Below are positions 30,286-40,944 of a stretch of 64,000 nucleotides of DNA, piece by piece (positions within the stretch are counted from its first letter, which is position 1; each line of letters begins with the position of its first letter). This DNA is from Thioalkalivibrio sp. ALJ3 (GTDB taxonomy: Bacteria; Pseudomonadota; Gammaproteobacteria; Ectothiorhodospirales; Ectothiorhodospiraceae), in contig NZ_KB897907.1 of assembly GCF_000377205.1 (NCBI RefSeq), positions 310,001-374,000 of the forward strand. The letters are read 5' to 3'. The notes under the pieces are model-generated. The model did no database searches, was not told the origin of the DNA, and saw only the letters and a list, made by a program, of their open reading frames with translations. The position numbers and the translations under genes were made by a program.

Positions 30286-32874
30286 TCAGGCGGCCGCCGC
30301 GGCGCGGGTAAACGCCAGATGCCCGCCGGCCATGTCCACCTCGATGGTATCGCCCGGGCCGAACTCGCCGGCCAGAAGCGACTGGGCCAGCGGATTCTCG
30401 AGCTGGGTCTGGATCGCCCGCTTGAGCGGACGCGCCCCGTAGACCGGGTCGAAGCCCGCGGCGCCCAGGTGATCCAGCGCCGCGTCGGTGATGGTCAGTC
30501 CGAGGTCGCGCTCTTCCAGACGCTTGCGCAGGTACTGCAGCTGGATGTCGGCGATCGCGCGGATCTGTTCGCGCTCCAGCGGATGGAACACCACCACGTC
30601 GTCGACACGGTTGATGAATTCGGGGCGGAAGTGCTGCCCGACGATCTCCATCACCGCAGCCTTCATCGCGCCGTAGTTCTCCTCGCCGGCCATCTCCTGG
30701 ATCTGCTGCGAACCCAGGTTGGAGGTCATCACGATCACCGTGTTGCGGAAGTCCACGGTGCGGCCGTGCCCGTCGGTCAGGCGCCCGTCATCCAGCACCT
30801 GCAGCAGCACATTGAACACATCCGGGTGCGCCTTCTCGACCTCGTCGAGCAGGATCACGGAGTACGGCTTGCGGCGCACGGCCTCGGTCAGGTAGCCGCC
30901 CTCCTCGTAGCCGACGTAGCCCGGGGGCGCCCCGATCAGCCGCGCCACGGAGTGCTTCTCCATGAACTCGGACATGTCGATGCGCACCATCGCCTCTTCG
31001 GTGTCGAACAGGAACCCGGCCAGCGCCTTGGTCAGCTCGGTCTTGCCCACGCCGGTCGGGCCGAGGAACAGGAACGAACCGTTCGGACGATTCGGGTCGG
31101 ACAGGCCTGCCCGCGAGCGACGAATGGCATTGGCCACGGCATTGACCGCCTCGGACTGACCGACCACGCGGACGCCAATCGCCTCTTCCATGCGCAGCAG
31201 CTTGTCCTTCTCGCCCTCCAGCATCTTGGAGACCGGGATGCCGGTCCAGCGCGAGACGACCTCGGCGACCTCTTCGTCGGTCACCTTGGTGCGCAACAGT
31301 TTGGTCTCCTGGCTCTCCATTTCGTGGGCCATGGCCAGGGACTTTTCCAGGTCCGGGATCCGACCGTACTGCAGCTCCGACATGCGCGAAAGATCCCCGG
31401 CACGGCGGGCCGTTTCCAGCTCCATACGGGCACGCTCCAGTTCTTCCTTCAGTTGCGCGGCGCCGGAGACCGAGGCCTTCTCGGACTTCCACACCTCCTC
31501 CAGATCGGAGTACTCGCGTTCCAGGCGCTTGATCTCGTCCTCCAGCGTGTCGAGGCGCTTCTTCGAGGCATCGTCGGATTCCTTCTTCAGTGCCTCGCGC
31601 TCGATCTTCAGCTGGATCAGGCGGCGTTCCAGGCGATCCATGGATTCCGGCTTGGAGTCGATCTCCATCTTGATGCGGCTGGCTGCCTCGTCGATCAGGT
31701 CGATCGCCTTGTCCGGCAGCTGGCGGTCGGTGATGTAGCGCTGCGAGAGCTGCGCGGCGGCAACAATCGCCGGGTCGGTGATCTCGATCCCGTGATGAAC
31801 CTCGTAGCGCTCCTTCAGCCCGCGCAGGATGGCGATGGTGTCCTCCTGCGTGGGCTCGTCGACCAGGACCTTCTGGAAGCGGCGCTCCAGTGCGGCGTCC
31901 TTTTCGATGTTCTGGCGGTATTCATCCAGCGTGGTCGCGCCGATGCAGTGCAGTTCGCCGCGTGCCAGCGCCGGCTTGAGCATGTTGCCCGCGTCCATCG
32001 CGCCCTCGGCTTTGCCGGCGCCCACCAGCGTATGGATCTCGTCGATGAACAGGATCACGCGACCTTCTTCCTGCGAGAGCTCCTTGAGCACGGACTTCAG
32101 CCGTTCCTCGAAGTCGCCGCGGTACTTGGCCCCGGCCAGCAGCGCGCCCAGGTCCAGCGCCAGCACGCGCTTGTCCTTGAGCCCCTCGGGCACCTCGCCA
32201 TTGATAATGCGCTGCGCCAGGCCCTCGACGATCGCGGTCTTGCCGACCCCCGGCTCGCCGATCAGCACCGGGTTGTTCTTGGTGCGACGCTGCAGCACCT
32301 GGATCGAGCGGCGGATCTCCTCGTCACGCCCGATCACCGGATCCAGCTTGCCCTGCTCGGCGCGCTCGGTCAGGTCGGTGGTGTATTTCTCCAGCGCCTG
32401 GCGGCTCTCCTCGGCGTCCGGGTTGTCCACCTGGTTGCCACCGCGGATGTCGTGGATAGCCTTGTCCAGTGCGTCCTTGTTGGCGCCGGCATGGCGCAGC
32501 ATCTCGCCCACGCCGCCCTTCTCGTCGACGGCGGCGAGCAGGAACAGCTCGCTGGAGATGTACTGGTCCTTGTTCTGCTGGGCCAGCTTGTCGCAGACGT
32601 TCAGCAGCCGGCCCAGGTCATTGGAGACATGGACCTCGCCGGCCGCGCCTTCGACCTTCGGCATGCGGTCCAGCGCCTCTCCAAGCGCCGAGCGCAGCTG
32701 GCGCACGTTCACGCCCGCGCGGTCGAGCACGTGGCGCACGGTGCCGCCATCCTGGTCCAGCAAGGCCAGCAGCAGGTGGGATGGTTCGATGAACTGGTGG
32801 TCGCGGCCAACGGCAAGTGACTGCGCATCGGCGATCGCGGACTGGAACTTGGTGGTCAGGCGATCCATTCGCAT
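30286..32874 (-). CDS. clpB: ATP-dependent disaggregase ClpB
   Basis: 862 residues, full length. Hexameric AAA+ unfoldase that rescues aggregated proteins with DnaK. Order: N-domain repeats ([20 protein letters not shown], then SHLLLALL), first ATPase with [13 protein letters not shown], a coiled-coil M domain (about 410-530), second ATPase with [15 protein letters not shown], and a small C-terminal domain. Start ATG 32874 matches other ClpB proteins. It has a near-consensus heat-shock promoter at 32915-32942 and a strong terminator. Confidence 0.98.
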
Positions 32875-32914
32875 TGGGAAACCCCTCGGTCAAATCTGTA
32901 TGAACTGACACGAA

Positions 32915-32942
32915 CCATGGGGGCAATGCCCGGCGCTTCAAG
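32915..32942 (-). promoter_or_regulatory. Sigma-32 heat-shock promoter of clpB
   Basis: Minus strand: CTTGAAG (32936-32942), 13 bases, CCCCATGG (32915-32922). This matches the RpoH consensus CTTGAAA-N13-CCCCATNT closely and lies about 40 bases before the clpB start codon. Confidence 0.85.
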
Positions 32943-32943
32943 G

Positions 32944-33233
32944 TTAGGGAAACACTGATCAATGTACACGCTCGCGCTCGAGTCGGTTTTGCGTGCGAAC
33001 AATGCGCGGTGACTGCCGTGCAGTCATTCTGCACAAGGGAGCCGCAATGCCGTTCCCACGCCCGTTTTTGATCAACAACGGGCGGCCGAGCCCCTTCGGG
33101 GTTGGCACCCCAGGTTCCCCGATCCTGCGTTGCGGCCCTTGCCGGTAGAACCACTACCGGCTGCGCACCGCGCCTTGTCTCGGAAAACCTGGGGTGCCAA
33201 CGCGAGCGCGTACATTAATCAGTGTTTCCCTAA
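32944..33233. repeat. MITE-like element with 33-bp terminal inverted repeats
   Basis: The ends read TTAGGGAAACACTGAT at 32944 and its reverse complement ending at 33233. Over the first 33 bases the two arms differ at two positions only. An inner inverted repeat, GTTGGCACCCCAGGTT (33100-33115) against AACCTGGGGTGCCAAC (33186-33201), makes the right half a long hairpin. No transposase is encoded; no target duplication is obvious. Occupies most of the 388-base gap between clpB and yfiH. Its left end is 1 base from the clpB -35 box. Confidence 0.8.
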
Positions 33234-33262
33234 ACACCGAATTTAGAACAGGTGGCGCGCCG

Positions 33263-34048
33263 TCATTCCTCGTCCAGATGCCCGATCCAGGCCAGCGTGC
33301 CCATGCGTCCGGTCTCGCCGTCCCGGCGGTAGGAGTAGAACCGCCCGGCCTCCGAATAGGTGCAGCGCCCGCCGCCCGCCACATGTACGACATCGACCCG
33401 CTCCAGCCGGTGCCGGGCCAACGCGTAGATGTCCGCGTGGAAATGCCCTTTGGGGCCGGGACGGAAGGCGGGCGCGGCCTCGACATCGTGATCGAGGAAG
33501 GTATCGCGCACCTCCGGCCCGACCTCGAAGGCCTCCGGCCCGATCGCCGCCCCCATCCAGGCGCGGATCTCCGCCTCGGGGCGCGTGATGCGCAAGGCCT
33601 CGACGGCCGCCTCGAGCACCCCGTCGGCCAGCCCGCGCCAGCCGGCATGGGCCACGGCCACCGCCTCGCCATCGTCGGTCGCCAGTACGACGGGCAGGCA
33701 GTCCGCCGTCTGCACGGCACAGACCACACCAGGGACGTCGGTGAATACCGCATCGGCCTCGAGCACCTCGTCCTGCTCCCACGCCTCCAGCAGGTCCTCG
33801 GCCCGGATGACGCGCGTGCCGTGGACCTGCCGCGGCCAGGCGACGGGCTCCGCGATCCCCAGGCTGTGTTCCAGGCGGTAGCGGTTCTCGGCGACATGTT
33901 CGGGGTTATCGCCGGTATGCAGGGCGAGGTTCAGCGAGTACCAGGGGCCCGTGCTCACGCCCCCCTCCCGCGTGCTCTGTACCGCCCAGACACCCGACGG
34001 GAGGTCGCCGAAGTCCGGCGCCAACATGGGGATCAGTTCAGCGGTCAT
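33263..34048 (-). CDS. yfiH: YfiH/PgeF multicopper-fold purine nucleoside phosphorylase family protein
   Basis: 261 residues. Motifs QVHGTRV, TADCLPVVLA, AHAGWRGLADGV and GAAIGPEAFEVG define the laccase-domain (DUF152) family; the His/Cys metal site is intact. Members have been described as peptidoglycan-editing factor PgeF and as purine nucleoside phosphorylases. ATG 34048 is inside the end of rluD, overlapping it by 11 bases, as in E. coli where yfiH follows rluD and clpB follows yfiH. Confidence 0.93.
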   Translation of the reverse strand: MTAELIPMLAPDFGDLPSGVWAVQSTREGGVSTGPWYSLNLALHTGDNPEHVAENRYRLEHSLGIAEPVAWPRQVHGTRVIRAEDLLEAWEQDEVLEADAVFTDVPGVVCAVQTADCLPVVLATDDGEAVAVAHAGWRGLADGVLEAAVEALRITRPEAEIRAWMGAAIGPEAFEVGPEVRDTFLDHDVEAAPAFRPGPKGHFHADIYALARHRLERVDVVHVAGGGRCTYSEAGRFYSYRRDGETGRMGTLAWIGHLDEE

Positions 34049-34997
34049 TCTGGGCCTCCCGGTCGGTACGCAGGGCGACGAGCAGCGCCTCGAAATCCTC
34101 GGGCACGGGGACCTCGAAGGCGAGCACTTCGCCACTGTCAGGATGCTCGAATTCCAGCCGCGCCGCATGCAGGGCCTGGCGGCGAAAGGCCGCGAGCGCC
34201 CCCTTCGCCGCCTCGCCCATGCCGCGCACCGGACGCGGTCGCCCCCCATAGGCGGGATCACCCACGATCGGGTGGCGGATATGCGCCATGTGCACGCGGA
34301 TCTGGTGGGTACGCCCGGTCTCCAAACGCACGTTCAGCAGGGTATGAGCCGGGAAGCGCTCCGCCACCCGGTAGTGGGTCACCGCCGGCTTGCCGCCGCC
34401 CGTGACCGCCTGACGCTTGCGATCCACCGGATGGCGGCCGATCGGCTCTTCGATGGTGGCACCGCTGATCACGCGGCCCTGCACCAGTGCCCGGTACTCG
34501 CGGTGCACCGTACGTTCCTGCAACTGGCGCACCAGCGCGGTCTGCGCCTGCGGCGTACGCGCAACCACCATCAGCCCGGTAGTGTCCTTGTCCAGCCGGT
34601 GCACCACCCCGGCGCGCGGCAGCTGCGAGAGGTTCGGGTCACGGTGCAACAGGGCATTCACCAGGGTGCCGGCCCGATGCCCCGCCGCCGGGTGCACGAC
34701 CAGCCCGGCCGGCTTGTTGATCACCAGTACGGCGGGGTCCTCATGGACGACATCCAGCGCAATGGGCTCGGGTTCCGCCTCCAGGACCGGGGCCCCCGGG
34801 GGCTCCAGCACGACATGCTCGCCGCCCTGCACCGGCGTGCGCGGTTTTGGCTGGCCACCGTTCACGGTCAGGGCCCCTTCCTTCAGCCACTGGGTCAGCT
34901 GGCTGCGCGAATACTCCGGGAACAGCCGCGCCAGCGCGGCATCCAGCCGCTGGCCGGCCTCTTCCTCGGGGAGTTCCGCAGATCGCGGTTCGTTCAT
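34038..34997 (-). CDS. rluD: 23S rRNA pseudouridine(1911/1915/1917) synthase
   Basis: 319 residues. S4 RNA-binding domain at the N-terminus (QRLDAALARLFPEYSRSQL), then the pseudouridine synthase core with the catalytic Asp in HRLDKDTTGLMVVA and ETGRTHQIRVH. ATG 34997 begins MNEPRSAE; the frame is open further upstream into the bamD promoter region but that part is unlike protein. Divergent from bamD, 98 bases between starts, exactly the E. coli bamD/rluD arrangement. Confidence 0.95.
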   Translation of the reverse strand: MNEPRSAELPEEEAGQRLDAALARLFPEYSRSQLTQWLKEGALTVNGGQPKPRTPVQGGEHVVLEPPGAPVLEAEPEPIALDVVHEDPAVLVINKPAGLVVHPAAGHRAGTLVNALLHRDPNLSQLPRAGVVHRLDKDTTGLMVVARTPQAQTALVRQLQERTVHREYRALVQGRVISGATIEEPIGRHPVDRKRQAVTGGGKPAVTHYRVAERFPAHTLLNVRLETGRTHQIRVHMAHIRHPIVGDPAYGGRPRPVRGMGEAAKGALAAFRRQALHAARLEFEHPDSGEVLAFEVPVPEDFEALLVALRTDREAQNDR

Positions 34998-40384: not shown

Positions 40385-40563
40385 TATGGCAGCGCTGAAT
40401 AGAGCCATCCTGGCTTTCTCAGGGCACGCTGCGCTGCAACGTTCTTGATGCCCTTGCACGGGCAAAGGGGTTTGCAGCTTGCTCCGGGATCAACCACCTA
40501 CGGTGGCCAATCCCGGCGGGACACCCCTGTGCCACACGAAAACGCAGATCAATCAGCGTTTCC
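40385..40563. repeat. Degenerate hairpin-rich repeat with a terminus related to the 32944-33233 element
   Basis: The right end, read on the minus strand from just after the panD stop, is GGAAACGCTGATTGAT. It matches 14 of 16 bases of GGAAACACTGATTAAT at the ends of the element near clpB. The left end (GGCAGCGCTGAATAGA) is a poorer copy. Inside are hairpins: CCGGGAT/ATCCCGG around CCACC/GGTGG at 40484-40516 and TGCCC/GGGCA at 40449-40464. No coding capacity seen. Confidence 0.55.
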
Positions 40564-40944
40564 TCAGGCGGCCTGCACCGGGATGCCGTGACCAGTACGC
40601 ACGATCGCGTTGCGGTCGTCGAGATACACGAGATTCGGGGTAAATTCGCGGGCCTCGGCGGCCTCCATCTGCGCATAGGCGCAGATGATCACGCGATGGC
40701 CCACTGCCGCTTTGTGCGCAGCCGCGCCATTGACCGAGACGATGCCGGAGCCCGGCTCGCCCTCGATCGCGTAGGTGGTAAAGCGCTCGCCGTTGTCCAC
40801 GTTGTAGATCTGGATCTGCTCGAACGGCAGGATACCGGCGGCATCCAGCAGCCGCGTATCGATGGCGCACGAGCCCTCGTACTCCAGCTCACAATGAGTG
40901 ACCTGGGCCTTGTGCAGCTTGCCCTTGAGCATGGTGACGTGCAT
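40564..40944 (-). CDS. panD: Aspartate 1-decarboxylase
   Basis: 126 residues. Makes beta-alanine for pantothenate. The self-processing site Gly24-Ser25 in EYEGSCAID yields the pyruvoyl cofactor. Start [10 protein letters not shown] is the family start. The TGA stop is followed at once by the repeat terminus GGAAACGCTGATT. panC lies 92 bases upstream on the same strand, so panB, panC and panD are close but panD may have its own promoter. Confidence 0.96.

Follow-up and report, generated by a model that had tools for sequence, protein, structure and literature searches.

Immediately upstream of clpB in Thioalkalivibrio sp. ALJ3 lies a 290-bp sequence with inverted-repeat ends, which comes very close to the predicted heat-shock promoter of this gene. 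This raises the question of what the sequence is, how it came to be there and in what manner it may influence the genes around it. We analyzed the 64,000-nt stretch of ALJ3 DNA that contains it (hereafter, the window), the whole ALJ3 genome (G000 in our genome set) and the genomes of relatives, of which G001 is the nearest. The sequence is placed between the stop of pgeF/yfiH (33263) and the start of clpB (32874), both on the minus strand, and the clpB start is 69 bp from the edge of the element at 32944 (Table 1). The 862-aa downstream frame is presumably clpB, as judged from its recognizable sequence and from the original prediction; the longest frame of pgeF/yfiH starts at 34261. We take the sigma-32 -35 consensus to be CTTGAAA, and the predicted clpB promoter was matched to it by eye. 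The -35 box reads from 32942 to 32936, so the one-base gap to the element that had been claimed previously is correct.

Table 1. Positions in the window of the element, its parts and the neighboring clpB and pgeF/yfiH features
Feature	Positions	Strand	Remark
clpB, 862-aa ORF, downstream gene	30286..32874	-	
Predicted sigma-32 -10 region of clpB, CCCCCATGG	32915..32923	-	sequence compared with the assumed consensus
Predicted sigma-32 -35 box of clpB, CTTGAAG	32936..32942	-	sequence compared with the assumed consensus
MITE copy with the TA target bases on its flanks (probable)	32944..33233		element proper ~32947-33230
Terminal inverted repeat, Y end, clpB-facing	32944..32976	+	94% complementary to X end
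Left TA, probable target-site duplication	32945..32946		
Y module, imperfect hairpin	32977..33090	+	inverted, diverged relative of X
Small central hairpin, CCCC-TTCG-GGG	33091..33101		14-15 bp insert here in other copies
X module, long hairpin, arms of 22 bp	33101..33201	-	2 of 136 distinct copies have it inverted
Terminal inverted repeat, X end, pgeF/yfiH-facing	33201..33233	-	
Right TA, probable target-site duplication	33231..33232		
pgeF/yfiH, upstream gene	33263..34048	-	start by codon-usage scorer; name from the original prediction

The terminal arms are 33 nt long, differ at two positions and are separated by 224 nt, which bears out the earlier description of a 290-bp element with terminal repeats of about 33 bp and two mismatches. 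The internal inverted repeat is also present, but the 16 bp given for it was a shorter count of two 22-nt arms (33101-33122 and 33180-33201, 91% complementary). The X and Y modules show about 69-75% identity over the outer 104 bp from each end. When the 20-base end was searched with up to three mismatches, it was found twice in the window and not at all in 100 shuffles. The single strands of the element fold with predicted energies of -170 and -182 kcal/mol (z about -13.5 relative to shuffles), and the element contains no ORF of at least 80 aa; three overlapping ORFs extend far into the flanks. Elsewhere in the window (40537-40564), an imperfect palindrome of 28 bp looks like two family ends joined together, possibly a relic, at a place where G001 has unrelated sequence.

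The ALJ3 genome (2,629,588 bases in 12 contigs) contains at least 57 full-length copies and five partial ones, a tally that is the union of an element search, an end-motif search, a query with the B-type element and the reading of contig 3. The element is thus far from single-copy, as the original prediction had anticipated. Of 117 candidates from the element search 40 were scored, and all 40 were family copies. The end motif with up to three mismatches gave 149 matches, against none for the reversed control; the B-type query returned further copies, and a 324-kb part of contig 3, when read, yielded eight full-length copies and four short palindromes. Fifty-one distinct copies were read whole and measured 226-313 bp, falling chiefly into classes near 268, 283, 297 and 312 bp. 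A number of contigs break off inside a copy or a few bases away from one (C2:484374-484655 in a contig of 484658 bases, C7:6-208, C9:1-254 and C2:5-105), as expected of a repeat that breaks assemblies. Over all genomes we collected 136 distinct copies, including an added one (L028) whose second end was unrecognizable at the threshold and which served for module order only; one ALJ3 copy occurring twice among the rows (L024_20_331 equals L029_1502_1813) is left out of both the 51 and the 136. The 130-row alignment was made without L030, L073_7591, L089_1709 and any copy shorter than 255 or longer than 320 bp; on inspection, L073_7591 and L089_1709 have the ordinary module order.

An exact 30-base pattern, which distant relatives would escape, was found in 67 stretches among the genomes of 84,980 species, all of them Thioalkalivibrio. 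A family search of 40 genomes including ALJ3, in which up to 18 candidates per genome were scored, gave matches in 14, namely ALJ3, 12 of 24 other genomes of the genus and one outside it that matched weakly (G039, best E 2e-5). No plasmid relatives of the element were found. Gene calls came from a codon-usage scorer, for which 91 long ALJ3 ORFs were the training set, instead of a standard annotator; with gene overlaps of up to 60 bp ignored, no called gene spans any of the 51 distinct ALJ3 copies or of 125 copies overall. The 51 lie between tandem, divergent and convergent genes in 28, 16 and seven cases, respectively, which is similar to the shares of intergenic length on contig 3. Some deviant sequences were also seen. 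A 343-bp family member (L043 688-1030) has the Y module but lacks a recognizable X module, and 24-bp palindromes at L100 1458-1481, L120 1432-1455, L132 1414-1437 and other places correspond to two fused end repeats; at least the perfect one in L100 is explicable by a deletion between the TGATCA copies of both arms. X-module matches at C8:72563, C5:79902 and C2:5, compared by eye, are absent from our copy lists.

The flanks of the copies indicate where the element inserts. Of the 51 ALJ3 copies, 20 have TA on both sides, 27 on one side and four on neither, and the commonest flank pair, CTA/GGG...CCC/TAG, occurs in 10; given that CTAG is its own reverse complement, duplications of 2, 3 or 4 bp are indistinguishable there. 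Because most copies have TA on one or both sides, the outer TA is probably target DNA, so that the element proper at clpB probably begins 4 bp from the -35 box. We then compared the eight full-length copies from that part of contig 3 with G001. Three are common to both genomes, one site is cleanly empty in G001, one holds unrelated sequence (269506) and three lack two matching flanks. At the empty site (C3:241975), G001 reads CATCCTTGAAT where ALJ3 reads CATCCTA/element/TGGAAT. At clpB, the insertion was present only in ALJ3 and G001 among 16 loci, which were included when the clpB start could be matched; the 14 genomes without it include two from other genera, and in two of them (G006 and G012) the sequence past clpB looks by eye unrelated to pgeF. 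Conservation of the 290 bp at this position in distant relatives, against which the original prediction had to be weighed, was therefore not seen. Presence in ALJ3 and G001 only means that the insertion predates the split of these two genomes and is young within the genus. A similar sigma-32-like motif was found at the clpB of relatives, by eye and with a loose pattern. The insertion point is a TA that lies upstream of the clpB -35 box by a few bases, and the predicted sigma-32 core is, on this sequence comparison, older than the insertion.

If the family is a mobile element without a gene of its own, then it introduces the question of the transposase with matching ends, which the original prediction had suggested looking for. 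Transposase matches were found in nine of 40 genomes. Intact 321-aa frames occur in G012 (L226) and G021 (L218); they match the NCBIfam model NF033581, 'IS5 family transposase' (E 8.7e-95 and 1.9e-96), as well as Pfam DDE_Tnp_1 and DUF772. Both ends are visible in five insertion-sequence (IS) copies, which measure about 1.17-1.22 kb; two of the five have internal stop codons (L219 and L227). Each of 11 IS ends matches an A- or B-type MITE end at 15-18 of 18 bases, two A variants and one B variant having been tried. Right ends match the A-type end at 15-18 of 18 bases and all five are closer to A, and left ends match the B-type end at 13-18 of 18 bases with five of six closer to B, the remaining one resembling A better. 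These preferences imply that A-type copies, including that of the window, consist of two 'right' ends and B-type copies of two 'left' ends. The IS copies of the relatives (L226, L217, L219, L220 and L227) thus share with the MITE about 18 end bases, to which the similarity is confined, and TA-containing flanks; they differ from it in their length, their transposase gene and their two unlike ends. However, no match to DDE_Tnp_1, DUF772 or the 321-aa protein was found in ALJ3, and no IS5-type transposase was found in G001, so that any recent mobility is hypothetical. The expected transposase with matching ends accordingly exists in relatives and was not found in the ALJ3 genome. No convincing autonomous element was seen inside the family loci examined. 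An IS630-type transposase (TA target, DDE_3) was considered and rejected, with matches in six of 24 genomes and none in ALJ3. In G012, an IS630-type DDE_3 gene stands directly beside an IS5-type element with matching ends (L165, about 960-2085).

Next, we examined how the two arms of a copy relate to each other. In 49 ALJ3 copies, the two 29-base arms of the same copy showed 1.47 mismatches on average. Shuffling the arms inside each subfamily gave 3.47, and pairing with the arm of the copy nearest in its interior gave 3.63. A harder control, the copy nearest in its left arm, gave 2.12, so that the excess over this control is small. For all 129 rows, the corresponding values were 1.33 for the own arm, 3.19 for the subfamily shuffle, 2.90 for the nearest interior and 1.60 for the nearest left arm. 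Private changes matching on both arms were seen seven times, compared with 11 private one-sided changes, in the 49 copies. Two Watson-Crick types occur at 19 of 29 end pairs, seven of 35 X pairs and three of 30 Y pairs (129 distinct rows). Both copies with an inverted X module belong to ALJ3, and two relatives carry the module uninverted at one of the two sites. In addition, 17 orthologous pairs involving 15 ALJ3 copies were compared, for which both flanks had to match (L023/L081, with one flank, was left out). In thirteen of them there is an indel of 5 bp or longer, usually of one or two modules of 14-15 bp. The best ALJ3 paralog was closer than the ortholog in 10 pairs, less close in six and equal in one, a comparison that leans to paralogs because the best of about fifty is a maximum. 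This pattern is consistent with what gene conversion among copies would give, and the matched arms and inverted module are consistent with template switching in a hairpin, by analogy with other inverted repeats. Homogenization of arms together with inversion of the spacer is described as a signature of inverted-repeat template switching (PMC8604942, PMC8794818); the systems in the accounts available there are yeast coding DNA and RNA genes, whereas here it is a dispersed bacterial element and a 101-bp module is inverted, not a few bases. However, the arm matching could also stem from selection on pairing, and we count this against template switching.

We also analyzed the orientation of copies between genes. 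We counted 62 independent tandem sites, 48 with the Y end toward the downstream start and 14 with the X end toward it (p 1.7e-5). Where this start is less than 36 bp away, the ratio is 30 to 1 (16:1 in ALJ3 and 14:0 in other genomes), and beyond 36 bp it is 18 to 13 (Fisher p 0.0005 for near against far). The 36-bp threshold was picked after seeing the data; thresholds of 20, 30 and 50 bp give 19:0, 25:1 and 34:2 for the near sites. The window copy has the common orientation. The upstream gene at many tandem sites stops inside the element or only a few bases from its edge. Interrupted genes were considered as a source of the bias and rejected, since the joined flanks form one open frame at only two of the 31 near sites and the ratio without them is 28 to 1. 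The two possible interrupted genes, both with Y facing the start, are at L019 1504-1784 and L091 3244-3540. In the joined flanks of the 31 sites, the downstream start is in frame at eight, about one third being expected by chance, and the upstream frame is open at three, including L093 with a stop 196 bp before the element. The strong tandem bias suggests a direction-dependent effect on transcription. Given that no intrinsic terminator was found on either strand in 32800-33400, a polar effect would need another cause. In 131 of 136 rows, the more C-rich stretch of 78 nt is on the strand read Y first, which would be a weak fit to Rho. For ERIC elements, an orientation-dependent destabilization of upstream mRNA is described (PMC2229807, PMC3049150).

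Other explanations must be weighed against this body of evidence. Selection for a structured RNA or riboswitch-like unit, repeated by chance and kept paired by its function as RNA, would account for the very stable predicted fold of both strands, for the compensatory pair changes, which are seen even between the orthologous clpB copies, and for the tandem-gene orientation bias. We nevertheless consider it improbable, because Rfam 15 gave no match at E up to 1 on either strand of 32700-33500, the mismatches are strand-balanced (557 G-T against 465 A-C cells over 97 pairs), the X and Y arms favor opposite strands, and neither the empty site, the transposon ends nor the insertion-like distribution is what such a unit would predict. 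It is less probable still, to the point that we give it very little credence, that the family is of the REPIN/BIME type, mobilized by a RAYT (Y1 transposase) gene. REPs are reported from two Thioalkalivibrio strains (PMC3733652). The X module contains a GTAG-bearing hairpin, and ALJ3 has four Y1_Tnp matches (L264-L267; on C2, C4 and C5), three of them over the family cut-off; however, the examined flanks of all four are devoid of family end or hairpin motifs, and the ends match the IS5-type element instead. Moreover, the length, long terminal repeats and TA-centered sites of the element do not fit REPINs.

Two further alternatives concern parts of the picture only, and we regard each as unlikely, if less so than the foregoing. 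The ends could be alike through a transposase that selects symmetric ends, not through template switching. Transposases do recognize the ends of mobile elements, and matched variants may come from active progenitors, to which the nearest-left-arm control comes close; yet each of the seven matched double changes is confined to one copy, the IS copies themselves hold two different ends, and a module inversion is seen at a shared site. As for the orientation bias, the Y end might bear an outward promoter or translation signal that favors copies with Y toward a gene start. Y does point to close starts in 30 of 31 tandem cases, but in only 10 of 17 divergent ones (10 to 7), which is no clear bias (p 0.002 for the contrast between tandem and divergent cases, or 0.02 with only starts outside the element counted), and 32800-33400 contains no sigma-70-like promoter. 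The divergent ratio therefore makes a Y-end promoter a less good explanation of the bias than polarity of the opposite orientation, and such a signal strikes us as doubtful.

Taking these results together, we propose with a probability of roughly 0.85 that the 290 bp are a copy of a non-autonomous IS5-type MITE, an explanation in which mobilization in trans, template switching and selection on orientation are included as one. The original MITE reading agrees with this, the element being multicopy, patchy at clpB and accompanied in relatives by an IS5-family IS with matching ends. An IS5-type transposase would have moved the copies in trans, and ALJ3 would since have lost it, so that its copies are now probably mostly resident. 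After insertion, neighboring arms may form a hairpin, in which template switching by DNA polymerase would copy arm onto arm; this would keep the ends palindromic and occasionally invert the inner module, and gene conversion among copies would shuffle the 14-15 bp modules. Between tight tandem genes, the bias suggests that the element is tolerated or useful mainly if the transcript reads X first, with Y beside the downstream start, and that the Y-first orientation is probably polar or destabilizing. The clpB copy would have inserted in the common orientation, before the ALJ3/G001 split, upstream of the older predicted sigma-32 promoter. A bolder reading, which we hold only tentatively, is that the element acts as a direction-sensing operon module, which when read X first permits or aids the next gene and when read Y first is polar, and whose hairpins are perfected by template switching without selection on sequence.

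The element is of a known kind, a MITE, and belongs to an apparently undescribed family. Like ERIC, Correia/NEMIS and RUP as they are described (PMC2229807, PMC10969869), it is small, gene-less and mostly intergenic, has TA-ended terminal inverted repeats, is present in tens of copies or more and would give strongly folding transcripts. ERIC orientation is reported there as crucial for its effect on mRNA, and inversion is reported for Correia. However, the Thioalkalivibrio element is mostly 267-313 bp long, against roughly 100-200 bp for these families, and, in comparison with their descriptions, it differs in its two diverged inverted half-modules, its central hairpin and its IS5-type ends. 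The Chunjie MITE of Geobacter is also similar by description, at 235 bp with dozens of intergenic copies, size variants and one operon copy; the available text of that report does not mention orientation bias (PMC10969869). The Thioalkalivibrio repeat papers, as far as their available text goes, concern REPs and RAYTs and not this family, and the corresponding text of the comparative genome paper (PMC5328954) deals with transposases only. No description of the family was found in the open-access literature searched.

What the family adds to known MITEs is its self-matching ends, shuffled modules and orientation bias. At the clpB locus, the predicted heat-shock promoter seems to retain its core with 290 bp inserted a few bases upstream of it. 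The family is present in many copies, some at shared sites, in 13 genomes of one genus; such copies make MITE evolution by gene conversion measurable and offer a copy-by-copy measure of whether inverted repeats are kept up by template switching or by selection. If the direction-sensing reading is true, then selection has left almost only X-first copies between tight tandem genes. The orientation bias yields a direct, testable prediction on how a resident MITE affects operons.
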